Part shown: one piece after another, positions 6,909 through 62,666 of the stretch | Position numbering within the stretch: the stretch's first letter is position 1 | Layout: each line of letters begins with the position of its first letter | NCBI GenBank assembly: GCA_033398695.1 | Contig: CM065804.1 | Coordinates: 36,595,501-36,659,500 of the forward strand | Direction of reading: 5' to 3' | DNA: 64,000 nucleotides | Source: Orobanche coerulescens | Lineage: Eukaryota; Streptophyta; Magnoliopsida; Lamiales; Orobanchaceae | Translations under genes and position numbers: made by a program | The notes under the pieces: model-generated | The model's input: only the letters and a program-made list of their open reading frames with translations | Told to the model about the DNA's origin: nothing | Database searches by the model: none

Positions 6909-8095
6909 TGTTGTGTCAAGATTTAACACCTTCCGACCGGCGATCGCCTCGGAGGTCGGGCGATCGAGTCACTGCCGAGCGGCCAAGGCAGATCTGCCGA
7001 TCAGCGACCAGGCGACCGAGCCTTAGCCCAGCGGACGAGCTAAATCGGCCAACCGAAGGACCCAGGACAAGTCCCGGTGCCGAGCGATCGACCTCAGATA
7101 CGATCGCCTCTCGGTACTCGGCGACCGACTCCTGGCGATCGACTAGCGGACGATCCTCTCTCGACATCTGCCGATCGACCCTTGGTGACCGACCTCTCTC
7201 GGCATCTGCCGACCGACACTTGGTGACCGACCAATGCCGACCCTCGACAACTGGCCAATGGCGACCTCTGATGACCACCTAGGGACGACCGCCTCATGAC
7301 GATCAGGGCCGATGGCCATCCAGTCGGCAAAGGCCGACCCTCAAGACTGGCACCACGTGCAAGGACCAAGACAAGATCCGCGAATCACGGGTCATTGACC
7401 ACACTGGCGAATCTCTCCACCGACAAGCCGAAAGCCGCCGCAGGGCCACATGTGACCATTGATTCCGCCGAAAGCCGCGGTAGGACCGCATGTCGATCGA
7501 CTCAACGCGTGCCGGCCTCTTATCGACTACCCACCGGGCGCCACCTCTTCTCGACTTTTGCCCGACGGCCCGGGTGATCGCCCCATTATAATATTGGCCG
7601 GCAGGCGATCGGCACATTATTATAATGGCCGGCAGGCGATCGCCCGCTAGAGGACAGGACCCGGCTGTCCCTATATAAGCAAGGCACCCTGCACTTGGAC
7701 ACTTCTTCGACTTCCTTCGGATTTCATACAATACAGAAGAAAAATACACACACTTGGCTAATCTCCAACTCTTGGCAACAACTATCATTCGGTCTTACTT
7801 CTCCCGGCCTATCTCATCCAGCAGATTATCGGAAGGGACGAAGAACACCAAGCTTCGCTCAAGAGCCGGATTAACAGAGTCTTTTTACACTCATTGTATT
7901 TAGATTTCTCTCATTAATACTTGTATCCACGAATATTTGTATTAATAACATCTCGCGAGAGCATTCAAGCCCGGGCCTAACAAACCCGGCAAATCTTGTA
8001 TTATTTATCTTCTCTCGGAAGTGCTCCCGCAATTGTTGTCTGTTGTCCGTCTTCCAGCAGTATTAATCTTCGGATAAATATTTTGGGCAACAACA
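6909..8095 (+). repeat. 5' LTR of gag-only copy A
   Basis: 1,187 bp, GC-rich in U3 with many GCGATCGC-type palindromes and CCGACC repeats. TATA box CTATATAAGC at 7671-7680. Just upstream is a tandem pair of ~33-bp units (GATCG...CATTATAAT...GGCCGGCAG); the 3' LTR has only one unit. A patch at 7403-7560 differs at many clustered sites from the 3' LTR although the rest is nearly identical. Confidence 0.88.
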
Positions 8096-8096
8096 A

Positions 8097-8115
8097 TTGG
8101 CGCTAGAAGGAGGGC
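8097..8115 (+). promoter_or_regulatory. primer-binding site of copy A
   Basis: TTGGCGCTAGAAGGAGGG directly follows the 5' LTR. Copies B and C have close variants at the same place (25289, 58584). The complementary tRNA could not be named with confidence. Confidence 0.65.
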
Positions 8116-8222
8116 ATCTAAACCTCAATTTTTATACCTACCGTCCCGAAGAACACTCACTGTTCTCGGGGCAGATACTTGAAGTGACACTTACTGCACT
8201 TCAAAGAAATCTTCCAGAAATC

Positions 8223-9437
8223 ATGTCTTCCGCCTCCGCGTCGAAGAAAGCCGCCGGCCAGCCGGCCGGAAGCCGCGTTCCGTCCCAGTCCGAGCCACAG
8301 CCGATGGTGGAAGGTAGCCGCCGCGGTCAGAGACGCTCGATCCCGCCCCTGGACGGCGGCCCAAGCCTCTCGCTCGATCGGTTCCGAACCAAGGAACAGA
8401 TCGAAGGGGCCCTGGCCGTCCTACAGGAGCGACGGAGTGCTCTCGACGCGCCTCCCGCTATCGCCCCCTCGGTCGTCCGCCGGAAGTCCAAGCGGAAGCT
8501 CAAGGCGTCACTGGCCGAGCGATCGCTGTGAGGCTCCGTCCGCAAGAAGAGGCGCTCGCCCGGGCGCCTCGTCTTCGATCGCCCGGGCGGTGACCCGACT
8601 GCACGGGCGATCGCCCCAGCTACGAGTCGACAGAGTTTGAGTCGGTCACCAGGAGCTCGGCCTATCCGACTCCCAGAAGGCAGCCCAGCCGTCTGGCTCC
8701 CCCTCGCCGAATTGCCGAGGCCGGCAGCAGCGGAGTCCGGAGATTGGTACACGATCGCCTCGGCTCCTGCTCCCAAAGCCGATCTGCAAGCGACCAAGCC
8801 ACGGCGATGGCTGCGATGCAACGTCAACTCGACGACATGAAGGCGCCTCGAATCTGTGGCAGGCGCCAAGAAGACGATCGCCGGGCCAAGCGAGCCGCTC
8901 ACGATCGACATCGAGCTCGCCCCCGTGCAGCACAAGATCGCTCCCCCGCAAACACCCGTGTACGAGGGGCGATCGGACCCCCAGATGCACCTGAGGAAAT
9001 TCAACATCTACATGACCGGGTGTGGGGCATCAGACGCGACCAGGTGCCGAATGCTCCCTCTGACGCTTGACGACCTCGCCCACAGGTGGTACGCCTCGTT
9101 GCCGCCTCGGTCCATTGGTTCTTTTAACCAGCTGGCGCACGTCTTCACGGAGTACTTCGCCACCAGGGTCGTCCGACCCGAAGGTCTCCTTCGCATGATG
9201 CAAATCAAGCAGGGAGAAGAAGAGTCCGACTCGGACTACATCGACCGGGTAGACGTAATCATCCTCAACGGCGAGCCCATAAGCGATAAGACCGCCCTCT
9301 ACGCGGTCCTAGGAGGATTTCAGGGTTTTTCGCCTATGTTCAGGCATCTCACGAAGACCCAACCTACGACCTACGCAGCCTTCCGGGCTAGAGCCGCAGA
9401 CTTTCTGGCCAGGCAAAGGTTCCTTCTTAGCCTGTGA
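8223..9437 (+). pseudogene. Tat-like gypsy gag, frameshifted (copy A)
   Basis: Begins with ATG at 8223 (MSSASASKKAAGQP), a start shared with copy C at 58711. The N-terminal part (Ser/Arg/Pro-rich, with a helix around residues 45-75) is cut by a stop at 8529-8531. The capsid-type domain resumes in another frame from about 8856 (MAGAKKTIAGPSEP) and runs to a stop at 9437. Typical gag motifs are HRWYASLPPRSIGSFNQL, DYIDRV and FQGFSPMFRHLTK. The frame ends earlier than copy C and lacks the knuckle-like region seen in copy B. Predicted role, by family: particle assembly. Damaged here. Confidence 0.82.
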
Positions 9438-9598
9438 GCAGCGCGATCGGCGCCCGGACGACGATCTCCCGCCCGATCGCCGACATCGACATACGAATAA
9501 AGCGATCGACAACCGAGCGACGATCGCCAGTCTTCCAGTCCGATCGCCGATCATCACGCTACATCATCAGCAACCCGGTGGACACGATCGCCATCTAC

Positions 9599-9990
9599 AG
9601 TCCAGCATATAACATGACGGACTAAGGCATAAGATCGCCTCCACCGCACTTCATAAAGCCATGGTCCTGGCAGTCGATGGAACCGGCTGCTTCGACCATG
9701 CAAGGTCCCTTTCGGTCGAGATCGCCTGCCCTTCGTTTAAATACGAGGCCGGCGTAGTCTAAGGGCTCTCCAACATTAATCAGTGGACACATGCCACAAC
9801 CCCCGTCTCAACGTACACCGTCGAGGTCGGCCATCTACATGGCTGGCCGAGGTGGAAGCAGAGCTAACAAGCCGCGGGCGTGGAGTTGATTCATCCGACG
9901 CTGCCCCGCGCAAGGACTCCTCTAGACCGAGACCGCACGCCCTTCGTTTAAATACGAGGCGAGGCGCAGCCTAACAGAGGACCCTCATAA
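9599..9990 (+). ncRNA. tandem stem-loop cassette in 3' internal region, copy A
   Basis: Two rounds of a small hairpin followed by a large hairpin. Small hairpins lie at 9601-9624 (weak) and 9825-9848 (GGTCGGCCAT / ATGGCTGGCC, ten pairs). Large hairpins lie at 9704-9771 and 9914-9984, each with the identical core CCCTTCGTTTAAATACGAGG (loop TTTAAATA) and outer pairing such as GGTCCCTT with AAGGGCTC, and GGACTCCTCT with AGAGGACCC. Copies B and C have the same layout with compensatory changes. An RNA function (packaging, dimerisation or export) is inferred. Confidence 0.6.
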
Positions 9991-10290
9991 TAAAGTGAGT
10001 CACGAGATACTCAATGTCTTCGCGCACCAAGACACAGTCATGGAGTCGGTCCATCGATCTCCGCGACTGTGCACGATTCCTCAAACAAAGCGAAACCACC
10101 AAGTTTCCGTGGGGGATCGGCCAATGTTGTTTTTGCAGGTACAAGACCGAAAGATAGCTAAGCCAATCGACCATGATAGCCCAAGTCCGAATCCTAAGTC
10201 AGCTCAGATCGCCCGACTTCATCCATACACGATCGCCAGCAAGAACCACCTCGCCCCATGTCTTCAACATAGGAGCAAGCTGGGGGCAAT

Positions 10291-11464
10291 TGTTGTGTCA
10301 AGATTTAACACCTTCCGACCGGCGATCGCCTCGGAGGTCGGGCGATCGAGTCACTGCCGAGCGGCCAAGGCAGATCTGCCGATCAGCGACCAGGTGACCG
10401 AGCCTTAGCCCAGCGGACGAGCTAAATCGGCCAACCGAAGGACCCAGGACAAGTCCCGGTGCCGAGTGATCGACCTCAGATACGATCGCCTCTCGGTACT
10501 CGGCGACCGACTCCTGGCGATCGACTAGCGGACGATCCTCTCTCGACATCTGCCGATCGACCCTTGGTGACCGACCTCTCTCGGCATCTGCCGAACGACA
10601 CTTGGTGACCGACCAATGCCGACCCTCGACAACTGGCCAATGGCGACCTCTGATGACCACCTAGGGACGACCGCCTCATGACGATCAGGGCCGATGGCCA
10701 TCCAGTCGGCAAAGGCCGACCCTCAAGACTGGCACCACGTGCAAGGACCAAGACAAGATCCGCGAATCACGGGTCATTGACCACAGCCTGGCAGAATCTC
10801 TCCACCAGCCGACAAGCCGCCGAAAGCTGTCAGTAGGGCCACATGTGACCATTGATTCCGCCGAAAGCTGTCAGTAGGACCGCATGTTGACTGACTCCGA
10901 ACGCGTGCCGGCTCCTTATTGGACCACCCAGCTGGCGCCAGCCTCTTCCTTGGACTTTTGCCCGACGGCCCGGGTGATCGCCCCATTATAATATTGGCCG
11001 GCAGGCGATCGCCCGCTAGAGGACAGGACCCGGCTGTCCCTATATAAGCAAGGCACCCTGCACTTGGACACTTCTTCGACTTCCTTCGGATTTCATACAA
11101 TACAGAAGCAAAATACACACACTTGGCTAATCTCCAACTCTTGGCAACAGCTATCATTCGGTCTTACTTCTCCCGGCCTATCTCATCCAGCAGATTATCG
11201 GAAGGGACGAAGAACACCAAGCTTCGCTCAAGAGCCGGATTAACAGAGTCTTTTTACACTCATTGTATTTAGATTTCTCTCATTAATACTTGTATCCACG
11301 AATATTTGTATTAATAACATCTCGCGAGAGCATTCAAGCCCGGGCCTAACAAACCCGGCAAATCTTGTATTATTTATCTTCTCTCGGAAGTGCTCCCGCA
11401 ATTGTTGTCTGTTGTCCGTCTTCCAGCAGTATTAATCTTCGGATAAATATTTTGGGCAACAACA
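10291..11464 (+). repeat. 3' LTR of gag-only copy A
   Basis: 1,174 bp, preceded by the polypurine tract at 10278-10290. TATA box CTATATAAGC at 11039-11048. It keeps the CAGCCTGGCAGA-type sequence also found in copy C, so it looks ancestral compared with the 5' LTR patch. Confidence 0.88.
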
Positions 11465-11991
11465 GCTGTGATTATTGGTATCGCCGGAGAAATCTCGCAC
11501 CAGAGGTTGAAGGTATAAAAAACGCAGAAATGGTAGAGGAAGAAGAAGACCTCCTTTTATAGGAGGTAGGGGCGAAAACCAAGAAGGGTAGGGACAATCT
11601 GAAACGTCTGATACCCTATTCGAAAAGAACGACCTAGATTCAACACCGCCTTAGCCAACCTATAGTAGGTTAACACCTGGGCCCAAGCGTGGGATGTGAT
11701 GGTTGGGAGGAAAGGTTGGGAAAAGGAAAAGGCGTTGATATAAATGCACACAAATCTCGAGAACTCGTTACCTGGAGACTTGATTCCCAAGGATTACCGC
11801 ATCGAGGTCGTCAATTTAAAATAACTCTTACTCTACTCAGTCTTACAGCTCGACTAGAGTAGAGGGGACTGGTTGATAGGACGACAAATGTAGACCTCCT
11901 AAAAACCCGGTCTAAAGAAGCCCAATATAAACCGATGTACCGATCTCTGAGTAAAGGAGGAGAGACCTCGACGAATGGAGTCCGATCTAGG

Positions 11992-12206
11992 GGCTTGGAG
12001 AAGAGTGTCCCGATCTAAGTGATCTTGCCGACCTATGGACTCAGATAAGAGTGTCCCGACCTAAGGGGTCTCGCCGACCTATGGACTCAGATAAGAGTGT
12101 CCCGACCTAAGGGGTCTCGCCGACCTCTGGACTCAGATAAGAGTGTCCCGACCTAAGGGGTCTCGCCGACCTCTAGACTCAGATAAGAGTGTCCCGACCT
12201 AAAGGG
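11992..12206. repeat. 46-bp tandem repeat, about 4.7 copies
   Basis: Unit starts GGACTCAGATAAGAGTGTCC at 12037, 12083, 12129 and (as AGACTC) 12175, with a more diverged first unit before 12037. Central units differ at only one or two positions. Confidence 0.9.
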
Positions 12207-12515
12207 CCCCTTATAATATGAACCAACCTGCCTAACCATCACCCGGAGTTGGAAGCCGGGCTTATGAAGGTTGAGCTCTCGAAAAGATAGATCTTGACCT
12301 ACCTGTCAGAATCCCGGAAATTCAGGGGCTGGTAAACCGCAGTCCCCAAATTCCGGATATTGAGGGATGGTAAATTGCAGCCTAAATCCCTGAATATCTG
12401 GGATCTTCCCTAAAATCAGGAAAAGATCTCAAGGACAGGCAGCCCTCCCTTCTATAAGTATGGAAGAAGCCTTCCTTCCAGAGGCCAAGGCATAATTCTG
12501 AGATTAAAGTATTTT

Positions 12516-20022: not shown

Positions 20023-22836
20023 CTATGTGTCCTCTCTTTGATTAATAATCCCCTGGATTAACATAGCATGGGTTTGAGGATTAAGCATGCAACCATCTTT
20101 TTCCATGACACCAACCAGCTGAGAGCAAACGTTCACAAAGCCCCTCTTCAGCAAGCCGTCAATCAAAACTTTCCAAGCCACTTCATCATGATTGTAACCA
20201 CAGTGAAGCAACCTCAGGAAGGTTCCCTTAGCCTTCTCATTGCCTCCCTTTTCATATAACCCGCAAACAAGCAGCTTATAGGACTCCAAATGAGGTAAAA
20301 AGCCATGCTTTAGCATGCAATCAATTACATTTATAGCTTCCTCATACATTTTCATGCTGCAGCAACAATATACAAGTCTGTTATACGTATCTTCATTCGG
20401 AGACATTCCGCATTGTCTCAAATGATCAACCAACCTCCAGGCTTCTTCAAGTCTTCTTTCTCTGCAAAGCCCAGTGATGAGTGCATTATAAGTGTTTATA
20501 CTCGGTGCACAACCATGTTCCTTCATTTTCTCAAAGAGCTTAAGAGCTGTATCATGTTCCATTATTTTCCAGACATCAGCAATATTAACAGAACAACTAT
20601 TTGGCTTTAGACCAAGCCCTGGTCTGCCACAAATTCCATTGATTAGTTTCTCATGTGAGAGATGTTTGATTAATATAGAATAGGTATAATGAGAAGGTTC
20701 GCATCCAGCACTAACCATAGACTTGAAGGTATCAAAAGCAAGACTTAGAAAACCATGACGTCCATATCCATCGATTAGGACTGTGTAAGCTGTCAAATCA
20801 GCTCTGACACCTTCTTCTTTCATTTTGGCCATGACATCCTCAGCTTCTTTCAACATTCCTTGGTTGCAATAAGCAAGAAGGAAAGAAGTATATGTGCAGA
20901 CATCTGGCTTATATCCCAGAACAACCATATGGTTTAGAACTTTATAAGCACTGTCAAAGTCATATTCCTTTAACATCTGCCCAATGATAATTGAGTAAGT
21001 AACAATAGTTGGTTTCATACCACCCTCCAACATCTTTTCCAAAAATTTTAAAGCCTCCGGTAGTTGTTTCACTTTGCACAATCCATTAATCAACACATTG
21101 TAAGTGTGTGAGTTTGGAAGGCAGCCCTCTGTAAGCATTCTTTCAAACAGATCTCGAGCAAAATCAACTTTCTCCACATTGCAGTATCCATCAATAAGAG
21201 CAGTATACATAATTTTATTCATCTTAATGCCCTTATCTTTGAGGGAGTTAAATATGCCATATGCCTTATCAACACTCCCTTTTTCACATAAAGCAACGAT
21301 AATAGGACCGTAGGTTAAATGATCAGGAACTACATTGCTCTCTTCCATTAACCTCAGGAGGCGAAAAGCACTATCTGTGTCACCCTCCTTAGATTGTCCA
21401 CATACTAAAAGGTTAAACGTGACAAGATCAGGAGAAAGCTTTTGCTCTAGCATCTTACTAAGAAGTGCCATCGCCTTGTGCACTTTTCTTACCTCACAGT
21501 ATCCAGAAATTAATTCATTATAAGTACGCACATTCGGACTACAATTCTTCAGTTCCATTAGGTCAAATATCTCAAAAGCAGCATCAACCATTCCCTTCTT
21601 ACAGTACCCATCAATCAAAGCATTATAAGTCACTACACTAGGAACCAATCCTTTATCTAACATTGCCATTAAAACATTCCTTGCTTCATCAAGCATACCA
21701 TCTTTACATGTACCATCAATAACTACGGTATAAGTGAGAACATTTGGCTCACAACCTTTCTTCTTCATCTCCTCAAGCATGCTCAAAGCGTCCAACCTCC
21801 TATCTAAACCACATAAAGCATCAATTAGAATTGTGTAGGTTCTGACATTTGGAAAACAATTATCATCCCCCATCTGTAAAAACAGCCTCTTTGCCTCATC
21901 CACTCTCCCAGCTTCGCATAAACCATGTATCAAATTATTATACGAAACCTCATTCCTTCGATAACCCTTTTGCCGCATTGACATGAAAATGCTATATGCA
22001 CTATCGACATCATTTTTCCGACAATGTCCCAAAATGAATGATGTGAAAGTATGCGTATCCGGATTCAAACCAGCCTGAAAAATCATACTTAAGTAAACCT
22101 TGGCCGCGGTCACATTACCCAATTTACAATGAGCATTAATCATTGTATTTAATGTATATATATTGGGCGTCACCTTATGATCCAACATCTCCATATAAAC
22201 AGATTTCATGTCAATGATCATCAGAAAACGTGCCAGGGACATTAAAAGCATGTTATAACACCTAAGACTAAGTGTAAACCTAAAGTCACCACCATCACCG
22301 TGGTTCATCTCGCGCAGAATACTCAACGCGAAGCTGGCATCCTCCTCCACCTCACAAGACTTAACCATTAAAATCCGGATTTTCTCTGCATGCCCAAAGG
22401 ATTTATTCTTTATCAAAATGCGCAGAAGGGACGCATAAGTCTGAACATTAGGTTTAAAAGTGGGGGCGCGGGATAGAAAATTGAAGAAGTGAAGGGCAAT
22501 ATGAGGATTCAGATGCGGATGCTGAGAGAGGAAAGAAGAGAAGAGGGAAGGGGATAGCGTTGGGATCAATTTCCTCAATGAAGGATGCTTTTGCCAATTG
22601 GGCTGGCATAGGAGGGAATACAGTTGAGAAGAGAGGTCGGCTGCAGGCGGGTCGGGTAGCAGGACGTGTTCGGGCGCGGGGGAAAATGAGAGTGGTCTGA
22701 TAAATGAGGAAGCAACGAAGATGGAGGAAGACAAACCTGAGGAGTGTAATGCTGGTGGAGTGACGGTGACGGCGGCGGTCAATCGTATCATTTTGAAAGG
22801 GTACCAAACGGCGGAGTAGCGAGAGATGCCATTCAT
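20023..22836 (-). CDS. P-class pentatricopeptide repeat protein, At5g65560-like, organelle-targeted (predicted)
   Basis: An uninterrupted 937-codon frame, intronless as most plant PPR genes are. After a Ser/Pro/basic N-terminus suitable for a mitochondrial or plastid transit peptide and a conserved lead-in (SLLCQPNWQKHPSLRKLIP, residues about 73-91), roughly 18 tandem 35-residue P-type repeats run to the C-terminus. Units such as NVLTYTVVIDGTCKDGMLDE and SVVTYNALIDGYCKKGMVDA are typical. No E, DYW or PLS motifs are seen, so an RNA-editing deaminase role is unlikely; binding and processing or stabilising organelle RNA is the family inference. Length is close to that of Arabidopsis At5g65560, from memory. 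An internal Met at residue 16 (22791) is an equally plausible start. The repeat region near residues 725-750 is slightly irregular. It is the only intact host gene in the window. Confidence 0.93.
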   Translation of the reverse strand: MNGISRYSAVWYPFKMIRLTAAVTVTPPALHSSGLSSSIFVASSFIRPLSFSPAPEHVLLPDPPAADLSSQLYSLLCQPNWQKHPSLRKLIPTLSPSLFSSFLSQHPHLNPHIALHFFNFLSRAPTFKPNVQTYASLLRILIKNKSFGHAEKIRILMVKSCEVEEDASFALSILREMNHGDGGDFRFTLSLRCYNMLLMSLARFLMIIDMKSVYMEMLDHKVTPNIYTLNTMINAHCKLGNVTAAKVYLSMIFQAGLNPDTHTFTSFILGHCRKNDVDSAYSIFMSMRQKGYRRNEVSYNNLIHGLCEAGRVDEAKRLFLQMGDDNCFPNVRTYTILIDALCGLDRRLDALSMLEEMKKKGCEPNVLTYTVVIDGTCKDGMLDEARNVLMAMLDKGLVPSVVTYNALIDGYCKKGMVDAAFEIFDLMELKNCSPNVRTYNELISGYCEVRKVHKAMALLSKMLEQKLSPDLVTFNLLVCGQSKEGDTDSAFRLLRLMEESNVVPDHLTYGPIIVALCEKGSVDKAYGIFNSLKDKGIKMNKIMYTALIDGYCNVEKVDFARDLFERMLTEGCLPNSHTYNVLINGLCKVKQLPEALKFLEKMLEGGMKPTIVTYSIIIGQMLKEYDFDSAYKVLNHMVVLGYKPDVCTYTSFLLAYCNQGMLKEAEDVMAKMKEEGVRADLTAYTVLIDGYGRHGFLSLAFDTFKSMVSAGCEPSHYTYSILIKHLSHEKLINGICGRPGLGLKPNSCSVNIADVWKIMEHDTALKLFEKMKEHGCAPSINTYNALITGLCRERRLEEAWRLVDHLRQCGMSPNEDTYNRLVYCCCSMKMYEEAINVIDCMLKHGFLPHLESYKLLVCGLYEKGGNEKAKGTFLRLLHCGYNHDEVAWKVLIDGLLKRGFVNVCSQLVGVMEKDGCMLNPQTHAMLIQGIINQREDT

Positions 22837-24362: not shown

Positions 24363-25287
24363 TGTTGTGTTGCGATTAACACATCTCGACGGCGATCGAC
24401 GTAAGGGCCGAGCGACCGAGTCAGCATCAAATGAGCCACGACACACCTACCAAACGAAAATCCCAGATCAAGTCCAAGTGCCGAGCGATCGACATCCATG
24501 GCGATCGTCTCTTGGCACATACCGATCGACTTTGGTGCCCGGCCAAGGACGACCGCCTCATGCCACGTGTAAACCAACATCCGTCGTATCTACCAAGACC
24601 GGATCTCGGAGTAAAGACCCACGTGCGGATCCGGAAAAGGCGCCGTAGGAAAATGCCTTTGACTCCAACCCATCAACAGCTGTCAATGACAAGGACAAAC
24701 CTCACCTACCGACAGACCCGCCGAAAGGTCCAAAGTGGACCTCCCAAGAAAGCGACGTAAGGCACATGGCATCTTCTCACTGGTTCGCACAACTGGCTGT
24801 CAGTAGCAGCCGCGGACTTTAAGGGAACCGACCCACGTGCTGAGACGATCGCCCGCTCATTATAATGCAAGAAAGGCGATCGCCGGCTCGGGATCAAGAC
24901 ATCACAGCTACCTCCTCTTCTATAAATAGAAGGCTTCCTGCACTTGGAAAGCTCTCAGCTTTTCCCTTGACTCTGTCTAAGATTTCTCTCTCAGAACCTC
25001 TTAACCAAAAGACGGTCGGCAGAAACGAGAACTCCCTACAGTTCAAGAACTCACAGAGCAGCACTCAAGAGCTAGATAATTAGGGTCTTTACACACATTG
25101 TAATTGTACTCTTACATTAATATTTGTACTCCAACATATTCGTATTAATAATATTTCGCGAGAGCATTCAAGCCCGGGCCTAACAAACCCGACAAATCTT
25201 GTGTTATTTACATTCCCACGGATGTGCTCTCGCATTTTGTTTGTTACTCATCCATTCCAGCAATATAATATATTTTGGGTAACAACA
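24363..25287 (+). repeat. 5' LTR of gag-only copy B
   Basis: 925 bp. TATA box TCTATAAATAGAAGG at 24919-24933, preceded by paired GCGATC motifs around CATTATAATGCAAG, the same arrangement as in copies A and C. Confidence 0.9.
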
Positions 25288-26552
25288 ATTGGCGCTGGAA
25301 GAAGGGCATCTACCTTTATTTTCATTCCGACCGTTTCGAAGAACACTCACTGTTCTCCGGAGCATATACTTGAAGAAACACTCAATGTTATTCAAAGAAA
25401 AACCTTCAGAATCATGACGTCTGCCACAACATCGAAGAGAGCCACTCTTCGATCCGCCGGACGGCTTATTCCGGCTCAATCCGAGCCCCAACCTACGGCG
25501 GAGGGTATCCGCGGCGGCGCGAGACTCTCGATCCCGCCCCCTAGGCATGGCCCTAGCCTCTGGCTCGATCAGTTCCAAATAGCAGAACAGATCGAGGAGG
25601 ACATGGCCATCCTACGGGAGCGACGGAGAGCATGCGGTACGCCCGCAATTACCCCATTAGCCATTCGCCGTGCGGGCAAACGGAAGCTCAAGGGGTTACT
25701 TGTCGAGCAATCGCAGGAAGCCCCGATTCACGAGAAGAAGCACTCGCGAGGCGGGACGGTTCCATTTTCAGCCGCCTAGGAAGCGACCCATCATGGCGAC
25801 CGGGGCATTCTGGCCCCAGCCATGAGACGACGGAGCCCGAATCCGTCACCAAGAGTTCGGCATACCCAACTCCCAAAAGACAGGTCGACCACTTGGCTCC
25901 CCCTCGCCGAAGAACCAAGATCGGCGGCGATGACCTCATCGCCTACCGTGGAGCCAGGAGATCGGTACACGATCACCTTGGCTCCCGCTCTGAGAGCCAA
26001 ACCACGAGCGACCAAGCTACGGCGATGGCCGCAATGCAACGCCAGCTCGATGGCATGAAGGCACTCCTAGAAACTGGGGCAGGCGCCAAGAGAAAGATCG
26101 CTGGGCCGAGCGAGCCGCTCGTGGTCCAGATCGAACTTGCCCCCGTGCAGCCAAGGATCGCTCCACCTCAAACACCTTTGTACGAGGGGAGGTCGGACCC
26201 CGAGACTCACCTGAGCAAGTTCTGGATCTACATGACCGGGTACGGGGCATCACACGCGACCAGGTGCCGAATGTTCCCGTTAACACTCGGCAATCTGGCC
26301 CATAGGTGGTACATCTCATTGCCATCGCGATCCATCAGTTCCTTTGAACAACTGGCGAGCGACTTCACATCGTACTTCGCCGCCAAGGTCGCCCGAACAG
26401 AAGGTCCCCACTGCATGATGAAAATCAGGCAGGGAGGAGACGAGTCCGACGAAGACTACATCGACCGGGTGGATGAGATAATCCTCAACGGCGAGCCCGT
26501 AAGCGACGAGATCGCCCTCTACTCGGTCCTAGAACTACTACAAAAACAGGGC

Positions 26553-26812
26553 TTTAACAGCGGTTCTGGAACCACTGTTAAAGGTGCCGATGTTAAATTT
26601 AACAGCGGTTTTTTAAGAAACCGTTGTTAAATTTAACAGCGGTTTTTTAAGAAACCGTTGTTAAATTTAACAGCAGTTTTTTACTAATAACCGATGTTAA
26701 ATTTAACAGCGGTTATTAGTAAAAACCGCTGTTAAGTATTTTTTTTTTCAAAATATTTTTTTTTAGAAATTATTTTTTTAACAGCGGTTCTTTTACAACT
26801 GCTGTTAAAATT
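26553..26812. repeat. left subterminal hairpin array of the CACTA element
   Basis: About six units of TTTAACAGCGGTT / AACCGNTGTTAAA, each an imperfect 30-36-base palindrome, joined head to tail. Confidence 0.85.
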
Positions 26813-26905
26813 GTTGAAATAAAAAAATTAATTAAACTGCCCCTGCCCAGATCCCCGCTCGCGACCCGCACATTTATGCATATTAATGTGCATTTTCGCT
26901 GCACA

Positions 26906-26966
26906 TGGGATTCGAACCTCTGACCTCCACTTTTGTGGAGGTGGTATCAAACCAATGAGCCAAAGT
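26906..26966 (-). other. tRNA-like sequence with Pol III A and B boxes
   Basis: On the minus strand, TGGCTCATTGG (26962-26952) resembles an A box, and GGTTCGAATCC (26918-26908) fits the B box consensus. Between them CCTCCACAAAAGTGGAGG forms a perfect 7-bp stem with a four-base loop instead of a normal anticodon arm. No acceptor stem pairs, so it is a tRNA-derived remnant and not a tRNA gene. Confidence 0.55.
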
Positions 26967-27342
26967 CAATTCTTATATTTTTGTTGCTTTATTTTATATA
27001 AGTGTACAATTAATCATATATATGTATATATATGTTTATTAATATTTTCAGAATTATATTATATATATAAAAGTTATAATTTAAATTATATAAAAATTTA
27101 ATGAAACTGATTATTAAACTTTTATGATTTATATTATTAATTAAGATATTATATTATTATAGAATAATAATATAATGTAATAAAAATTATATTACATATT
27201 TATAATGTATATTGTATATAACCATGCTGAAAATTTAAATTTTATAATGTACATTAAATTTATAATATATATTGATTACGAATATATATTATTATAAATC
27301 AATATTTAAAATTATATATTGCATTATATATTAAATGTTACA

Positions 27343-28108
27343 TTAACAGCGGTTGTTTAAACAACCGATGTTAAAGTTTTTTTTTTTTTAACAGCGGTTG
27401 TTTTAAACAACCGGTGTTAAACGTTTTTTTTTTCTTTTTTTAACAGCGTTTGTTTTTAAAAACCGATGTTAAACATTTTTTTTAACAGCGGTTGTTTTAA
27501 ACAACCGATGTTAAACGTTTTTTTTATATTACATTAACAGCGGTTGCTTAAAACAACCGTTGTTAAACTTATGCAATTAACAGCGGTTGTTTTAAACAAC
27601 TGATGTTAAACTTTTTTTTAACAGCGGTTATTTTAAACTACCGATGTTAAACGTTTTTTTTAACAGCGGTTGTTTTTAACAACCGATGTTAAACGTTTTT
27701 TTTTTAACAGCGGTTGTTTTAAACAACCGATGTTAAACGTTTTTTTTATATTACATTAACAGCGGTTGCTTAAAACAACCGCTGTTAAACTTCTGCAATT
27801 AACAGCGGTTGTTTTAAACAACCGATGTTAAACTTTTTTTTTTAACAGCGGTTGTTTTAAACAACCGATGTTAAACGTTCTTTTGTTTTTTTATATTACA
27901 TTAACAGCGATTGTTTAAAACAACTGCTGTTAAACTTATGCAATTAACAGCGGTTGTTTTAAACAACCGATGTTAAACATTCTTTTTTTTTTAACAGCGG
28001 TTTTTAAAAAAACCGCTGTTAATATATTACACAAAATTTACAGGTATGCCACCGCGTCATTTTAACAGCGGTTTCCGAACAACCGCTGTTAAAATGGCGT
28101 TGTTAAAG
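27343..28108. repeat. right subterminal hairpin array of the CACTA element
   Basis: About seventeen units with TTAACAGCGGTTGTTTTAA on the left and AACAACCGATGTTAAA or AACCGCTGTTAAA on the right, separated by T-rich spacers. A ~190-bp higher-order block containing TTTTATATTACATTAACAGC recurs near 27525, 27745 and 27888. Confidence 0.88.
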
Positions 28109-28837
28109 GCCAGTTTTGTAGTAGTGTAGGGGGATTCAATGGTCTTTCGCCCATGTTCAGATACCTTACGAAGGACATCCCCCCGACCTATGCAATCTTC
28201 CACGCCAAGGCCGCAAACTTTTTGGCCAGGCGGAGGTTTCTCGCCCTTCGCCAAGGCGAGGGGGCAGAGACGGCGATCGCCAAGTCCAACAAGGCGGTCG
28301 AAGCCACACGGTAATTTCAGGACCTTCAAGGATGTGGAAGCCCATCTCTACCACAACCTCAATCTATCTCCGGCTCATATTTTCTACACAATCCAGGGGC
28401 GCGAGTGGCTAAGCAAGCCGAAGGCGGTAAGGGACCACGGTCATCTGGACCGCAACAAATTTTATGCTTACCACAAGAGTCCCGGCCACAACACCGATCA
28501 ATGCCGCGACCTCCTCAGACAACTCTGGATATTGTTCGAGGAGGGCAAGCTGGACAGTCTAGTAACTTATCCGGATCCCCGGGCGGAAAGGATCAAGTGC
28601 CGCGATCGGCGTCAGAACGACGATCACCAGTCTCCTAATCCGATCGCCAGAATCAAACACGGTGAGCCAGAGGATTCATACGAGTCGATCCTCCCGATCA
28701 ACCCTGGCGGCCAGATCTTTATGCTTCAATCAAGAGGTGGAAACTTCGGAGGTCTTTCCCCAGTTTCCACCATGTGAAACGAAAGGCCACTGCCCAAAGT
28801 AACGTCTCTAAAAAATGGAGGACTCGCTCGCAATCTA

Positions 28838-29330
28838 AAGTTCATCATCTAACATGATGGACCTAGGCACGAGATCGCCTCCCTCATCACAACGTATACC
28901 ACCGAGGATCGCCATCTAACATGACGATCCGAGGTAGAAAAGTGCAGCCATGGTCTTGGAGGTCGATATAACTGATAGCTTCGTCCATGCAAGGTTCCTT
29001 TGGGCTGCGATCACTCGCCCTTCGTTTAAATACGAGGCGGGCATAGCCAAAGGACCCTCCAAACAAATCTGTGGACACGCTCGCCCGCCCTCAAAGGTTC
29101 ATCATCTAACATGGTGGACCCGGACAATGCGACGCGTCCCTACCCCCGTCACAACGTATACCATCGAGGATCGCCATCTAACATGACGATCTGAGGTAGA
29201 AAAGTGCTAACAAGCCGCGGTCGTGGAGTCGATTAATCCGACGATGCCCCGTGCAAGGACTCCTCCAGACCAAGACCGCTCGCCCTTCGTTTAAATACGA
29301 GGCGGGCGCAGCTTAATGGAGGACCCTCAC
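28838..29330 (+). ncRNA. tandem stem-loop cassette in 3' internal region, copy B
   Basis: Small hairpins at 28840-28863, 28906-28930 (GGATCGCCAT / ATGACGATCC), 29096-29120 (GGTTCATCAT / ATGGTGGACC) and 29168-29191. Large hairpins at 28993-29057 (outer arm GGTTCCTTTGG with CCAAAGGACC) and 29257-29326 (GGACTCCTCCA with TGGAGGACC), each around the invariant CCCTTCGTTTAAATACGAGG. Stem sequences differ from copies A and C while pairing is kept. Confidence 0.62.
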
Positions 29331-29630
29331 AATAAAGTGAGTCACGAGACAAACCTACATGTGGAATGTCGCTCACGCACAAGACATGGTCATGGAGGTC
29401 AGTCCATTGAACTCCGAAACCGTGCATGGTTTCTCAAGACCGAGATGATCGGCCTTCCTTGAGGAATCTGCAAAATTGAAGACCGCAAAGAGCTGAACCA
29501 AGAATCAGTCCGCTCAAGAAAACGATCATCTGGTCTATAAAGAGTTGAGCCGCTTGTTTGTAATTCAAATGATCACCGGTAACACCACCTCACCCAATGC
29601 CTTCAGCATCGGAGCGAGCTGGGGGGCAAT

Positions 29631-30556
29631 TGTTGTGTCGCGATTAACACATCTCGATGGCAATCGACGTAAGGGATGAGCGACTGAGTCACCGTCAAAT
29701 GAGCCACGACACACCTACCAAACGAAGATCCCAGATCAAGTCCAAGTGCCAAGCGATCAATATCCAAGGGGATCATCTCTTGGCACATAGCGATCGACTC
29801 TGGTGCCCGGCCAAGGACGAACGCCTCATGCCACATGTAAAACCAACATCCGTCGTATCTACCAAGACCGGATCTCGGAGTAAAGACCCACGTGCAGATC
29901 CGGAAAAGGCGCCGTAGGAAAAGGCCTTTGACTCAAGCCCATCAACAACTGTCAACGACAAGGACAAACCTCACCTACCAACAGACCCGCCGAAAGGTCC
30001 AAAGTGGACCTCCCAAGACAGCGACGTAAGGCACATGGCGTCTTCTCACTGGTTCGCACAACTGGCTGTCAGTAGCAGTCGCAGACTTTAAGGTAACCGA
30101 CCCATGTGCTGAGACGATCGCCCGCTTATTATAATGCAAGAAAGGCGATCGCCCGCTCAGGATCAAGACATCCCAGCTACCTCATCTCCTATAAATAGAA
30201 GACTTCCTGCACTTGGAAAGCTCTCGGCTTTTCTCTTGACTCTGTCTAGGATTTCTCTCTCAGAACCTCTTAACCAAAAGACGGTCGGTAGAAACGCGAA
30301 CTCCTTACAGTTCAAGAACTCCCAGAGCAGCACTCAAGAGCTAGATAACTAGGGTCTTTACACACATTGTAATTGTACTCTTACATTAATATTTGTACTC
30401 CAACATATTCGTATTAATAATATCTCGCGAGAGCATTCAAGCCCGGGTCTAACAAACCCGGCAAATCTTGTGTTATTTACATTCCCACGGACGTGCTCTC
30501 ACATTTTGTTTGTTACTTATCCATTCCAGTAATATAATATATTTTGGGTAACAACA
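29631..30556 (+). repeat. 3' LTR of gag-only copy B
   Basis: 926 bp, TATA TCCTATAAATAGAAG near 30187-30201. It differs from the 5' LTR by scattered substitutions only. Confidence 0.9.
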
Positions 30557-53114: not shown

Positions 53115-54520
53115 ATGGAAAGAAATCTCAGAGGTCTTGGCAGAGGGGGACGAGGCCGCAGTAGGGGCCGAATCCCATTACCACGAGCCAACACGCGCTC
53201 GAATGTGGAGCAGAGTTCCGCAGGCTGTGATTCAACTTCTAGGGACCAATCACACCACACTGGATGCGAGGATGCGCGTGTCGATCCTTACGTTTTTATT
53301 CAGGGCATGATGGCTCAGATGACCCAGATGGGTCAATTAATGGAATCTATGCAGAGAGCTACTACTGGCCAGCAACAGGGACCTCATCCTCCACCTCCTC
53401 TGCATGGCGGACCCGTGAGTCGGATCATCAACGACATCTCTCGCTAGCGACCCTCGACTTTTAAAGGATCCTCTGAGCCTGCTGACATTGTACATTGGAT
53501 TGAAAAGTTTGAGAAATTATTCAAGATGGTGAACTGTCCCGAAGAGAATCGCGTCTCTGTAGCAGCTTACTATCTTAGCAAGGACGCCCACACCTGGTGG
53601 CTTTCAGTGAGGACAGCTGATGGTGTATATACTTGGGAGAAATTTAAAACCCTCATGTTAGACCGTTACTATCCAGGGCCACTCGGTGAGGCCAAGCTGT
53701 CAGAATTGCTGAACCCGGACCCATCTGAAGACGATGATGTATTATATGTTTTCGAGAAATTTCAGGCACTTCTTCCTTTCACCTCGTCGATTGTCCGAAC
53801 GGAGGCCAATAAGATCAAATATTTTCTCAAGAGGCTTAAGGCCCGAATGAGAATGCGGCTGTTGAATCACCACTTTACGACCCTACCGGAGTTCATCGAG
53901 AAAGCTCTAGAATACGAACTCACCGCGAAGGATATTTCCAAGAAGCAACCACAGTCCAAAAACAAAAGATCTAGAAACCAGAACAGACTGACAGTAACCG
54001 GGGGACATTCAGGAAGCCCCAGTCGTTGCCAAACCCTTTTGAGCGACCACCCATGGCATCGAAGCCAGCCAGATCGCACTCTCGAGCGGTCAACTCATCT
54101 GTTATGTGCTATAACTATGGGGATCAGGGGCACATCAGCTCCAAATGCCCGAAGCCGGCCGTCGCATGCCATACTTGTGGAAAGAATGGGCATCGTGTTC
54201 GTTATTGCAGGAATGGACCGGGACGTGATCCAGTAGCATCTCATGCTCCAATTCAATATTCTATCCAGGACCGAGTACCTTCGTCTGCTTCTTATCAGAC
54301 TACCGGGGCGAACAGAGGGATGGGCCGTGGAAACCAAGCTGGAACATCTGGTGCCGGAACTACAAAACCTAGGATTTACGAGATAAATAAGACCGACGAT
54401 CCCGTAGCCAGCATGATTGAAGGTACTCTCGAGATCCAATCTCAGCCCGTCTGTATTCTATTTGATACTGGTGCTTCACACTCCTTTTTATCTGCGTTTT
54501 GTTTGAGTCATTTGCAATAA
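53115..54520 (+). pseudogene. chromovirus copy 2 gag and start of protease, broken
   Basis: ATG at 53115 (MERNLRGLGRGGRGRSRGR). A TAG at 53445-53447 replaces CAG seen in copy 1. The frame then continues through the capsid domain (53526-53985), shifts near 53990, and resumes at 54026. The first knuckle reads CYNYGDQGHISSKC, with Tyr for the second Cys; the second knuckle ([14 protein letters not shown]) is intact. Protease [12 protein letters not shown] lies near 54457-54492, and a TAA follows at 54518 where copy 1 has Leu. Confidence 0.88.
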
Positions 54521-57415: not shown

Positions 57416-57420
57416 AAGGT

Positions 57421-58582
57421 TGTTGTGTCAAGAATTACACTCTCCGACCAGCGATCGCCTCAGGAGATCGGGCGACTTAGCCGCCGCCGAGCAGCCAAGG
57501 CAGAACTGCCGACCAGCGACCAGGCGGCCGAGCCTTTACCCAGCGGACAAGCTAAATCGGCCAACCGAAGGTCCCAGGACAAGTCCCGGTGCCGAGCGAT
57601 CGACATCAAATACGATCGTCTCTCGGTACTCGGCGACCGACTCCTGGCGACCGACAAGCGGACGACCATCCCTCGGCACCTGCCGACCGACCCTTGGTGA
57701 CCGACCGATGCCGACCCTAGGCAACTGGCCGATGGGGACCTCTGATGACCAGCGAGAGACGACCGCCTCATGTCGATCAGCGCCGATGGCCATCCAGTCG
57801 GCAAAGGCCGAGCCTCAAGACTGGCACCACGTGCAAGAGCCAAGACAAGATCCGCGAATCTCGGATCATTGACCACAGCCTGGCAGAATCTCTCCACCAG
57901 CCGACAAGCCACCGAAAGCTGTCAGTAGGGCCGCATGTGACAGTGATTCCGGATGCGTGCTGGCTCCTCATTGGACCGCCCAGCTGGCGCCGGCACCTAC
58001 CTTGGACTTTAGCCCGACAGCCCGGGTGATCGCCCCATTATAATATTGGCCGGCGAACGATCGCCCCATTATTATAATGGCCGGAAGGCGATCGCCCACC
58101 AAAGGAGAAGACTCGTCTGCCACTATAAATACATGGATCCCTACACTTGTCCAAGGGACCGAGATTCTGACTCTCTAAAAACACTCCCCAGCAATATTGC
58201 AATTTCAGCACTCTCTGCACTCACCGGAATTCCACAGCACTTGGCTATCTCCAACTCTTGGCAACGACTATCATTCGGTACTTACTTCTCCCGGCCTCTC
58301 TCATCAGGCAGACGATCGGCAGGGATGAAGAACACTGAGCTTCGCTCAAGAGCCGGATTAACAGAGTCTTTTTACACTCATTGTATTTAGATTTCTCTCA
58401 TTAATACTTGTATCCACGAATATTTGTATTAATAACATCTCGCGAGAGCATTCAAGCCCGGGCCTAACAAAACCGGCAAATCTTGTATTATTTATCTTCT
58501 ATCGGAAGTGCTCCCGCAATTGTTGTTTGTTGTCCGTCTTCCAGCAGTATTAATCTTCGGATAAATATTTTGGGCAACAACA
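57421..58582 (+). repeat. 5' LTR of gag-only copy C
   Basis: 1,162 bp, TGTTGTGTCAAG to GGGCAACAACA. TATA CACTATAAATACATGG at 58121-58136. Upstream are two tandem units of CGATCGCC, CATTATAAT and GGCCGG. Confidence 0.9.
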
Positions 58583-58710
58583 ATTGGCACTAGAAGGAGG
58601 GCATCCAACCCTCAAATTTTTATACCTACCGTCCCGAAGAACACCCACTGTTCTCGGGGCAGATACTTTAAGTGACACTCACTGCACTTCAAAGAAATCT
58701 TTTAGATATC

Positions 58711-60055
58711 ATGTCTTCCGCCTCCGCATCGAAGAAAGCCGCTGACCAGCCGGCCAGACCCCCCATTCCGTCCCAGTCCGAGCCGCAGCCGATGGTGGAA
58801 GGCAGCCGCCGCGGTCAGAGACGCTCGATCCCATCCCTGGACGTCGGCCCAAGCCTCTCGCTCGATCAGCTCCGAACCAAGGAACAGATCGACGAGGTCA
58901 TGGCCGTCCTACAGGAGCGACGGAGTGCTCTCGACGCGCCTCCTGCTATCAGCCCCTCGGCCACCCGCCGGAAGTCCAAGCAGAAGCTCAAGGCATTACT
59001 GTCCGAGCGATCGCCAGGAGGCTCTCGTCCGCATGAAGAGGCACTCGGCAGCCGGGGCACCTCTGTCTTCGATCGCACAGGCGGTGACCCGACACAGCGG
59101 CCCAGGCGGTCGGCCCAGCTACGAGACGACGGAGTTTGAGTCCGTCACCAGGAGCTCGGCCTACCCGGCTCCCAGAAGGCAGCCCAGCCGTCTGGCTCAC
59201 CCTCGCCAAATTGCCGAGGTCGGCAGCAGCGGAGTCCGGAGATCGGTACACGATCGCCTCGGCTCCCGCTCCCAAAGCCGATCAGCGAGCGACCGAGCCA
59301 CGGCGATGGATGCGATGCAACGTCAGATCAACGACATGAAGGCGCTCCTGCAATCCAGGGCAGGCGCCATAAAGACGATCGCCGAGCCAAGCGAGCCGCT
59401 CGCGATCGACATCGAGCTCGCCCCGGTGCAGCACAAGATCGCTCCCCCTCAAACACCCGTGTACGAGGGGCGATCGGACCCCCAAACACACCTGAGCAAG
59501 TTCAACATCTACATGACCGGGTGTGGGGCATCAGACGCGACCAGGTTCCGAATGTTCCCTCTGACGCTGGATGACCTCGCCCACCGGTGGTACACCTCGT
59601 TGCCACCCCGGTCCATTGGCTCCTTTAACGAGCTAGCGAACGTCTTCACAAGGTACTTTGCCGCCAAGGTCGCTCAACCGGAAGGTCCCCATCGCATGCT
59701 GCGAATCAAGCAGGGAGAAGAAGAGTCCGAATCGGACTACATCGACCGGGTAGATGTGATCATCCTCAACGGCGAGCCCGTAAGCGATGAGACCGCCCTC
59801 TACGCGGTCTTGGGAGGATTTCAGGGGTTTTCGCCTATGTTCAGGCATCTCACGAAGACCCAACCGACGACCTACGCAGCCTTCCGGGCTAGAGCCGCAG
59901 ATTTCCTGGCCAGGCAAAGGCTTCTTCTTAGCCTAGGAGTAGAGCGATCGGTGCCCGAGCGACGACCTCCAGTCTCCCAGCCCGGTCGCTACTATCCAGC
60001 AGAGCCGGAGAACGTGCTCACCGCATATAGTCCATCATTTAACATGAGGGACTAA
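58711..60055 (+). pseudogene. Tat-like gypsy gag of copy C, one frameshift
   Basis: ATG at 58711 (MSSASASKKAADQPARPP). The first frame ends at 59139; a shift near 59090 moves into the frame ending at 60055. The capsid-type domain covers the second half (MDAMQRQINDMKALLQSRAG, HRWYTSLPPRSIGSFNEL, DYIDRVDVIILNGEPVSDE, FQGFSPMFRHLTK) and ends GRYYPAEPENVLTAYSPSFN. No knuckle is present before the stop, unlike copy B. A single indel is the main defect. Confidence 0.85.
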
Positions 60056-60420
60056 GGCTCGCGATCGCCTCCATCGCACATCATAAAGCCATGGTCCTGG
60101 CAGTCGATGGAACCGGCTGCTTCGGCCATGCAAGGTCCCTTTGGGCCGAGATCGCCCGCCCTTCGTTTAAATACGAGGCCGGCGTAGTCTGAGGGCTCTC
60201 CAAAATTAATCAGTAGACACGTGCCATTACCCCCGTCTCAACCTACACCGTCGAGGTTCATCATCTCCATGGCGGACCGAGGTGGAAGCAGAGTTAAACA
60301 AGCCGCGGGCGTGGAGTTGATTCATCCGACGCTGCCCCGCGCAAGGACTCCTATAGACCGAGACCACACGCCCTTCGTTTAAATACGAGGCGAGGCGCAG
60401 CCTAACAGAGGACCCTCATA
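60031..60420 (+). ncRNA. tandem stem-loop cassette in 3' internal region, copy C
   Basis: Small hairpins at 60031-60053 and 60255-60278 (GGTTCATCAT / ATGGCGGACC). Large hairpins at 60134-60200 and 60345-60415, each with CCCTTCGTTTAAATACGAGG. Layout and spacing match copy A. Confidence 0.6.
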
Positions 60421-60725
60421 ATAAAGTGAGCCACAAGACACTCAATGTCTTCGCGCACCAAGACACGGTCATGGAGTCGGTCCATCGAATTTGGCGACTG
60501 TGCACGATTCCTCAAACAAGCGAAACCATCAAGTTTCCAAGGGGGATCGGCCAATGTTGTTTTTGCAGGTACAAGACCGAAAGATAGCTAGCCAATCGAC
60601 CATGATAGCCCAAGTCCGAATCTTAAGTCAGCTCAGCAAAGATCGCCCGTCCTCATCCTTACACGATCGCCAGCAAGAATCACCTCGCCCCATGTCTTCA
60701 ACATAGGAGCAAGCTGGGGGGCAAT

Positions 60726-62231
60726 TGTTGTGTCAAGAATTACACTCTCCGGCCGGCGATCGCCTCAGGAGATCGGGCGACCTAGCTGCCGCCGGCGACG
60801 AGCGAAGCTGAGCCGGCGACCAGGCGGCCGAGCCTTTACCCAGCGGACAAGCTAAATCGGCCAACCGAAGGTCCCAGGACAAGTCCCGGTGCCGAGCGAT
60901 CGACATCAAATACGATCGTCTCTCGATACTCGGCGACCGACTCCTGGCGACCGACAAGCGGACGACCATCCCTCGGCACCTGCCGACCGACCCTTGGTGA
61001 CCGACCGATGCCGACCCTCGGCAACTGGCCGATGGGGACCTCTGATGACCAGCGAGAGACGACCGCCTCATGTCGATCAGCGCCGATGGCCATCCAGTCG
61101 GCAAAGGCCGAGCCTTAAGACTGGCACCACGTGCAAGAGCCAAGACAAGATCCGCGAATCTCGGATCATTGACCACAGCCTGGCAGAATCTCTCCACCAG
61201 CCGACAAGTCGCCGAAAGCTGTCAGTAGGTCCGCATGTGACAGTGATTCCGGACGCGTGTTGGCTCCTCATTGGACCGCCCAGCTGGCGCCGGCACCTAC
61301 CTTGGACTTTAGCCCGATAGCCCGGGTGATCGCCCCATTATAATATTGGCCGGCGGACGATCGCCCCATTATTATAATGGCCGGAAGGCGATCGCCCACC
61401 AAAGGAGAAGACTCGGCTGCCACTATAAATACACGGCTCCCTACACTTGTCCAAGGGACCGAGATTCTGACTCGCTAAAAACACTCCCCAGCAATATTGC
61501 AATTTCAGCACTCTCTGCACTCGCCGGAATTCCACAGCACTTGGCTATCTCCAACTCTTGGCAATGGCTATCATTCGGTACTTACTTCTCCTGGCCTCTC
61601 TCATCAGGCAGACGATCGGCAGGAACGAAGAACACTGAGCTTCGCTCAAGAGCCGGATTAACAGAGTCTTTTTACACTCATTGTATTTAGATTTCTCTCA
61701 TTAATACTTGTATCCACGAATATTTGTATTAATAACATCTCGCGAGAGCATTCAAGCCCGGGCCTAACAAACCCGGCAAATCTTGTATTATTTATCTTCT
61801 CTCGGAAGTGCTCCCGCAATTGTTGTTTGTTGTCCGTCTTCCAGCAGTATTAATCTTCGGATAAATATTTTGGGCAACAAACACCCAGCACTTGGCTATC
61901 TCCAACTCTTGGCAACAGCTATCATTCGGTCCTTCTTCTCCCGGCCTCTCTCATCCAGCAGACGATCGGCAGGGACGAAGAACACCGAGCTTCGCTCAAG
62001 AGCCGGATTACAGAGTCTTTTTACACTCATTGTATCTAGATTTCTCACATTAATACTTGTATCCACGAATATTTGTATTAATAACATCTCGCGAGAGCAT
62101 TCAATCCCGGGCCTAACAAACCCGGAAAATCTTGTATTATTTATCTTCTCTCGGAAGTGCTCCCGCAATTGTTGTTTGTTGTCGGTCTCCAGCAGTATTT
62201 AATCTTCGGATAGATATTTTGGGCAACAACA
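60726..62231 (+). repeat. 3' LTR of gag-only copy C with duplicated end
   Basis: A full LTR runs to 61880 (GGGCAACAA). Then ACACCCAGCACTTGGC begins a second, diverged copy of the last ~345 bases, ending GGGCAACAACA at 62231 next to the TSD. TATA CACTATAAATACACGG at 61421-61436. Confidence 0.88.
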
Positions 62232-62236
62232 AAGGT

Positions 62237-62632: not shown

Positions 62633-62651
62633 TTTCGAGGACGAAACTCCT

Positions 62652-62666
62652 TTTAAGGGGAGAGTA
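62652..62666 (+). promoter_or_regulatory. polypurine tract of chromovirus copy 2
   Basis: TTTAAGGGGAGAGTA immediately before the 3' LTR. Confidence 0.8.

Follow-up and report, generated by a model that had tools for sequence, protein, structure and literature searches.

Among described LTR retrotransposons, the closest systems are the TR-GAG elements, the BARE2 family and the Tat/Retand group. Transposition is reported, in passages of PMC8704663, for one Arabidopsis TR-GAG that resembles ATCOPIA63 members; those passages do not mention a conserved 3' RNA domain, and the word 'hairpin' does not occur in the main text of that paper. BARE2 of barley, a Ty1/copia element, is a non-autonomous parasite of BARE1 that is packaged in trans and is said to keep its dimerisation and packaging signals (passages of PMC3735527). 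In Retand elements, the regions between pol and the 3' LTR span 2,933-6,566 bp and contain antisense ORFs, with tandem arrays present in about half (PMC11963269); the strings 'hairpin', 'stem-loop' and 'packag' are absent from the main text of that survey. The IAP RTE and the MusD MTE are structured cis-RNA elements involved in the export of full-length RNA (passages of PMC12786077).

How the RNA of a non-autonomous plant LTR element enters the particle of another is largely open. Known packaging signals are usually found at the 5' end of the RNA, as are the dimerisation and packaging signals of BARE2, unlike the 3' cassette described here, and this counts against a packaging role for the latter. 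The CTE of simian retroviruses is an export element; its anatomy, together with the positions of the CTE, RTE and MTE, underlies the comparison with export elements made below. According to passages of the BARE paper, fairly little is known about the packaged RNA of other LTR retrotransposons (PMC3735527), and a 2025 review, in the passages concerned, describes the export of plant LTR retrotransposon RNA as not directly studied (PMC12786077). A short, duplicated and invariant core offers a concrete target for such work.

The 64,000-nt stretch of Orobanche coerulescens DNA analysed here (the window) contains three elements, A, B and C, which resemble TR-GAG elements in having LTRs, a gag frame and no pol, but differ from them in that gag is broken and that A and C are without a nucleocapsid-like stretch. 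Packaging in trans gives BARE2 the value of a plant precedent (passages of PMC3735527), although it belongs to another superfamily and cannot make Gag, whereas the present elements are without pol. With the Tat/Retand group they share membership of Ty3/gypsy and the presence of non-coding DNA with repeated units before the 3' LTR; however, the distance from gag to the 3' LTR is here about 0.67-0.85 kb, the units are two and diverged, and there is no long antisense frame. The CTE, the IAP RTE and the MusD MTE are animal elements, whereas the cassette described here has no Rfam match at the thresholds given below and its export role is putative.

Three gag-only elements in the window

6909..11464, + strand: element A, with LTRs at 6909-8095 and 10291-11464, a gag remnant and a predicted 3' structured domain
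24363..30556, + strand: element B, of a diverged family, with an exact target-site duplication (GCTTC/GCTTC) and a predicted 3' structured domain
57421..62231, + strand: element C, a close relative of A, with an exact target-site duplication (AAGGT/AAGGT) at its outer ends
Primer binding site (PBS) of the gag-only elements: TTGGCRCTRGAAG

As in TR-GAG elements, each has two LTRs and a target-site duplication, the latter being exact in B and C and imperfect in A, where the flanks GCTAT and GCTGT match at four of five bases. The lack of pol, also as in TR-GAG elements, is judged in A, B and C from how large the elements are and from the absence of long frames, profile searches having covered some of the frames; the internal part of A spans about 2.2 kb, and no reverse transcriptase was found in any of the three. 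The K2P distances between paired LTRs are 0.029 in A, 0.061 in B and 0.036 in C, and the insertions are therefore not recent. Within the window no autonomous partner was found, BLAST of the three elements giving no match beyond the three themselves.

An extra partial LTR copy, at approximately 61883-62231, follows the 3' LTR of C; as the AAGGT duplication lies outside this piece, it was probably present at or before insertion. Read from the sequence, C seems to have inserted into the pol-like region of another retroelement, which occupies 53526-57420 and resumes at 62232-64000.

8856..9437, + strand: gag capsid-region ORF of A (Retrotrans_gag, PF03732)
28139..28777, + strand: 3' part of gag in B, containing HKSPGHNTDQC; no Pfam match for this ORF
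58925..60055, + strand: gag ORF of C (PF03732), without the nucleocapsid-like stretch of B

Each of the three elements has one ORF that matches PF03732 (E 3.1e-06 to 1.2e-08), and no family besides Retrotrans_gag was found by Pfam in the gag ORFs tested. The HKSPGHNTDQC stretch of B we take to be nucleocapsid-like from its motif. Stops or frame changes interrupt gag in every one of the three elements, and in B an insertion does so as well; the single intact gag frame of a TR-GAG element is seen in none of the three copies; A, B and C are decayed relatives of the TR-GAG type, not working members. Over 143 codons of the capsid stretch, NG86 estimates of dN and dS are 0.07 and 0.23 for A-C, 0.17 and 0.47 for A-B, and 0.14 and 0.55 for C-B, with the A-B dS of 0.47 becoming 0.77 under YN00; the stretch still bears the trace of past constraint. 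The gag of C has one database relative, an Orobanche gracilis protein 62% identical over 44% of the query, and a search with the gag alignment gave two further relatives, one from O. gracilis and one a JGI record. In viral contigs, the gag-alignment pattern picked out 21 stretches, no relative among them, and nothing was found with the PBS pattern.

The insertion that splits the gag of B lies at approximately 26538-28130; its ends read ...CTACTACAAAAA / TTTTGTAGTAGTG, it contains many AACAGCGGTT repeats, and it is CACTA-like.

In A and C the gag frames stop without a nucleocapsid-like stretch, and the cassette is kept in both. Since A and C inserted separately and their LTRs share 85-88% identity, the loss of this stretch is probably older than either insertion; the A/C lineage would have moved after losing this part of gag.

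An invariant core within the large hairpins

9593..10125, + strand: predicted structured 3' non-coding domain of A (approximately 28833-29475 in B and 60023-60560 in C)
9599..9623, + strand: small hairpin s1 of A (C counterpart 60029-60053)
9658..9701, + strand: hairpin M1, predicted, preceding the first large hairpin
9707..9765, + strand: large hairpin L1 of A, predicted, invariant core at 9729-9748
9825..9848, + strand: small hairpin s2 of A (C counterpart 60255-60278)
9873..9910, + strand: hairpin M2, predicted, preceding the second large hairpin
9918..9981, + strand: large hairpin L2 of A, predicted, invariant core at 9940-9959
9984..9999, + strand: hairpin CTCAY-AATAAA-GTGAG, predicted in all three elements, right after L2 and with AATAAA in its loop
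10033..10071, + strand: hairpin H3, predicted; over the three elements, both partners differ in 2 of 15 pairs
10074..10119, + strand: hairpin H4, predicted; in 4 of 10 pairs one side has changed and the bases still pair
28839-28863, 28905-28929, 29096-29120 and 29167-29191, + strand: small hairpins of B
29018-29037 and 29283-29302, + strand: cores of B
60159-60178 and 60371-60390, + strand: cores of C

An earlier note on this DNA had reported the 20-mer CCCTTCGTTTAAATACGAGG six times in the window. Six exact matches were indeed recovered, all on the + strand and two per element, starting at positions 9729, 9940, 29018, 29283, 60159 and 60371; the mean expected by chance is 0.01, and six copies occurred in none of 100 shuffles. 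The block that is invariant in all six units is 22 nt long (GCCCTTCGTTTAAATACGAGGC), two bases longer than the 20-mer. When the units are aligned over 86 columns, all 22 columns of the core are invariant, against 26 of the 64 outside it, where the longest invariant run is 3; at the outside rate, a run of 22 invariant columns has a probability of around 2.5e-9 if columns are independent. No exact copy of the 20-mer was found in viral contigs. Genome contigs yielded two, both in bacterial records that are similar only in the motif and a few flanking bases; these were taken as chance matches rather than relatives, about 0.5 being expected in 257 billion bases.

The outer arms of the large hairpins had been described as changing together. 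They do so between A (CCTCT/AGAGG) and B (CCTCC/GGAGG), but the second unit of C has CCTAT/AGAGG, with an A-G mismatch. With the arms placed by hand, 34 of 39 cells of the outer stem are paired over the six units, one G-U standing against two A-C cells among the departures. In an RNAalifold run on the six large units, both partners had changed in one of 17 pairs, and the covariation term was unfavourable at +0.36. Hence covariation in the large outer stem is weak, and the large hairpin is less clear than the small ones.

In every copy the core contains the self-complementary sequence UUUAAA, for which the computed duplex energy is 0 kcal/mol over the six bases and -4.0 kcal/mol with flanking bases included. 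A self-complementary loop, such as is looked for in packaging and dimerisation signals, is therefore present, though its pairing energy is weak; the UUUAAA loop could kiss its twin on the same or another RNA, the computed duplex again being weak. In the minimum-energy fold of C, the two cores pair with each other and the core hairpins are not formed.

A model of the large hairpin, built from the six units and scanned over the window at E values up to 10, gave 11 rows. These were its own six units, four places in a tandem array (E 0.84-3.1), and a weak match at 29424-29479 over the H4 hairpin of B (19.9 bits, E 0.0018), which is possibly a third, degenerate unit in that element.

Paired changes in the small hairpins

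The cassette had been described as a small hairpin followed by a large one, repeated twice. This is the layout of A and C, but B runs small-small-large-small-small-large, giving eight small hairpins in total: two in A, two in C and four in B. The search pattern for them matched 10 places, of which 9639 and 60069 were left out, being the flank of M1 with no such hairpin. B carries a 65-nt small-hairpin segment twice with 94% identity, and this duplication is therefore recent.

That the arms of the small hairpins vary while pairing is kept is largely borne out: over the ten-pair stem, 73 of 80 cells (91.3%) are paired, although one of the B stems originally quoted, GGATCGCCAT/ATGACGATCC, has one C-A mismatch. 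Six of the ten pairs are changed on both sides, or five, according to how ties are broken in the count. None of 500 shuffles reached the observed percentage paired, nor did any reach the covariation score, while 10 of 500 equalled the observed count of doubly changed pairs and 71 of 500 that of further pair types. In controls with the stem slid along the sequence, at most 42.3% of cells were paired.

Neutral simulation from perfect hairpins, along a tree fitted to the same 39 columns that it tests, retained a mean of 52.1 of 80 pairs without constraint and 58.6 of 80 with four pairs held near-invariant. In neither set did any of 1500 runs match both the paired number and the double changes observed; taken by themselves, the double changes were equalled in 2.1% of runs in the first set and 0.7% in the second. 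Conserved RNA structure with covariation, as looked for in packaging and dimerisation signals, is thus found in the small hairpins of these three related elements. The departures from canonical pairing comprise eight G-U and five A-C cells, and neither in the small nor in the large stems do such counts separate RNA from DNA pairing.

Predicted structure of the 3' domain

Folding of the whole domain gave z scores of -3.36 in A (1 of 100 shuffles as good), -2.56 in C (1 of 100) and -5.27 in B (0 of 20). The cassette had been thought to end at 9990, but predicted structure runs about 130 nt further, while A-B identity falls to 0.63-0.75 (9988-10154, which includes H3 and H4) and so is not above that of gag. 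One pair of H3 is A-U in A, G-U in C and G-C in B; across the 3' hairpins as a whole (three sequences and 30 of the 40 predicted pairs, two weaker helices being left out), 116 of 500 shuffles scored as high.

When the three-sequence alignment was folded, 19 of 25 folding windows could be scored, the other six, including those over s1, being skipped for having more than 40 gaps in the row of A. On the + strand, z lay between -3.1 and -5.3 in seven of the 19: it was -3.1 over columns 121-240, -3.2 over 301-450 and -3.4 to -5.3 over 481-690, and the minus strand gave -1.0 to -2.3 in the same three stretches. Columns 481-690 fall mostly past 9990 and hold the AATAAA hairpin, H3 and H4. The folding windows over L2 (columns 361-540) are not unusually stable, with z from +0.7 to -1.4, and over columns 361-570 it is the minus strand that has the lower consensus energy. 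Overall, z was lower on the + strand in 13 of 19 folding windows, unevenly distributed; outside the domain, the minus strand comes out ahead in one alignment window (z -3.37).

Sliding single-sequence folding was patchy, with windows in gag reaching z of -4.8, and was dropped as proof of structure. Long-range pairing between the cassette and the 5' leader was likewise rejected, the best run of 9 being reached in 7 of 40 shuffles.

The domain lies between gag and the 3' LTR in all three elements, which is the position of the CTE and RTE. By analogy with these and with the MusD MTE, the main rival to packaging is a nuclear export or RNA stability element, in which the doubled 3' hairpins would serve to bring a host export factor onto full-length RNA. 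Its location after the last gene and before the 3' LTR, the duplication and the invariant bulged apical core would all suit such a role, position and form fitting it as well as they fit packaging. However, a scan of the window against Rfam at gathering scores was negative, as was one of 9400-10320 at E values up to 1, and packaging would explain equally well why elements mobilised in trans keep the domain. We regard export as rather unlikely; if it were correct, the cassette would be a plant counterpart of the animal transport elements.

Alternatively, the domain might control the 3' end or the translation of a short gag mRNA: the AATAAA hairpin would set or mask a premature poly(A) site, and translated RNA would thereby be kept apart from genomic RNA. 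Plant poly(A) signals are loose; AATAAA occupies the loop of a hairpin predicted for all three elements, but the U-rich stretch that might follow it is absent in A. Separate RNA pools for translation and for replication have been reported for BARE (passages of PMC3735527). As the two invariant cores and the small hairpins would be left unexplained, we consider both the control of the 3' end and the resulting separation of RNAs very unlikely.

Conservation and coding potential

Identity between A and B, which belong to diverged families, was taken in 60-column steps. It is 0.88-0.92 over the second half of the cassette (9867-10017) and 0.75-0.82 over the first half (9595-9866), compared to 0.58-0.85 across the interval of PBS and gag (8096-9300), 0.60-0.72 at 9311-9463, 0.27-0.75 in the 5' LTR at 6909-7936 and 0.32-0.48 just downstream at 10111-10246. 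The first half is not above gag. The second half is, and has no long open frame; it is therefore under a non-coding constraint stronger than that acting on gag. A and B differ at 15 of the 146 columns of the L2 block. A stretch of the LTRs is equally conserved between these elements (0.88-0.93 at 7937-8026 and 0.83-0.95 at 11282-11401); the R region and poly(A) signals possibly lie there.

No long frame crosses the 3' domain: all six frames contain stops in A, B and C, and the longest open stretch is 82 codons. Differences between A and B show no clear three-base period, the counts for the three phases being 7:5:3 (L2 block) and 11:8:7 (L1 block). On these two grounds a coding explanation of the cassette was ruled out. 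The longest open antisense stretch in the domain is 67 codons, so that the antisense ORF of Tat/Retand elements is not seen, although a shortened derivative of that group could have lost it.

These results bear on whether the constraint might act on DNA or protein, through a DNA-binding or cruciform site or through an overlooked ORF. Retand elements do have antisense ORFs between pol and the 3' LTR (PMC11963269), and the G-U and A-C counts given above do not tell the strands apart; against this, the stops and the lack of a clear period argue against a protein, and the lower + strand z in 13 of 19 folding windows argues against DNA. Constraint of either kind seems to us highly improbable.

It might instead be supposed that the cassette has no function, its likeness among the elements reflecting common descent or exchange between families and its hairpins arising by chance in GC-rich DNA. 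The three elements are related, the folding z scores are patchy and the doubled 65-nt segment of B retains 94% identity, all of which would suit this view. It is, however, opposed by the 22-nt run in otherwise diverged units, by paired changes beyond those of a neutral tree and by the local peak of non-coding identity, and we think it improbable.

A candidate signal for packaging in trans

The earlier note had argued that, in these pol-less elements, RNA structure is under selection. Covariation in the small hairpins, conservation of the second half above gag and a partial bias towards the sense strand speak for this proposal, whereas the first half, being no more conserved than gag, does not. 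The evidence comes from three related elements in one window, and on its basis the cassette is probably a selected RNA structure of some kind.

As the core is invariant, the small stems are variable but mostly paired, the module is duplicated and pol is absent, the best reading is a recognition site for a protein acting in trans. A packaging, dimerisation or recruitment signal would be a reasonable interpretation of such a site. Our tentative preference, based on the sequence comparisons, is for a cis-acting RNA recognition module, most likely serving for packaging in trans by the Gag of a helper element. The sense RNA would fold into repeated hairpins between gag and the 3' LTR, and the invariant 22-nt core would be bound by the Gag protein of the helper; RNA without pol could thereby be taken into particles and copied. 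Packaging would be the selected step, perhaps accompanied by dimerisation through the UUUAAA loop. We infer each part of this scheme: the fold in the cell, Gag as the ligand, the nucleocapsid identity of the stretch in B and packaging as the step under selection.

The packaging or recruitment reading gains some weight from A and C, as both lack the nucleocapsid-like stretch yet keep the cassette. Put in its most specific form, diverged gag-only families may have kept a duplicated hairpin module with a 22-nt core as a ticket into helper particles, A and C having discarded their own nucleocapsid; we advance this as a possibility, somewhat short of an even chance. If true, plant Ty3/gypsy elements would thereby gain their first defined structured signal for recruitment in trans, and packaging of this kind would explain how elements without pol kept moving. 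No published description of such a cassette was found among the matches listed, which covered titles and abstract openings of openly licensed papers.

Other features of the window

A tandem array with a 46-base period lies at 11982-12211, approximately 0.5 kb downstream of element A. Two further long coding sequences lie outside elements A, B and C. On the minus strand, 72-2969 contains a long open gag-protease-reverse transcriptase frame of 965 aa belonging to another LTR retroelement, as identified by Pfam. A 937-aa PPR protein, which by itself points to a host in or near the Lamiales, is encoded at 20023-22836, with 79% identity over 91% to a Buddleja alternifolia protein, the next match being from Salvia splendens at 71%.
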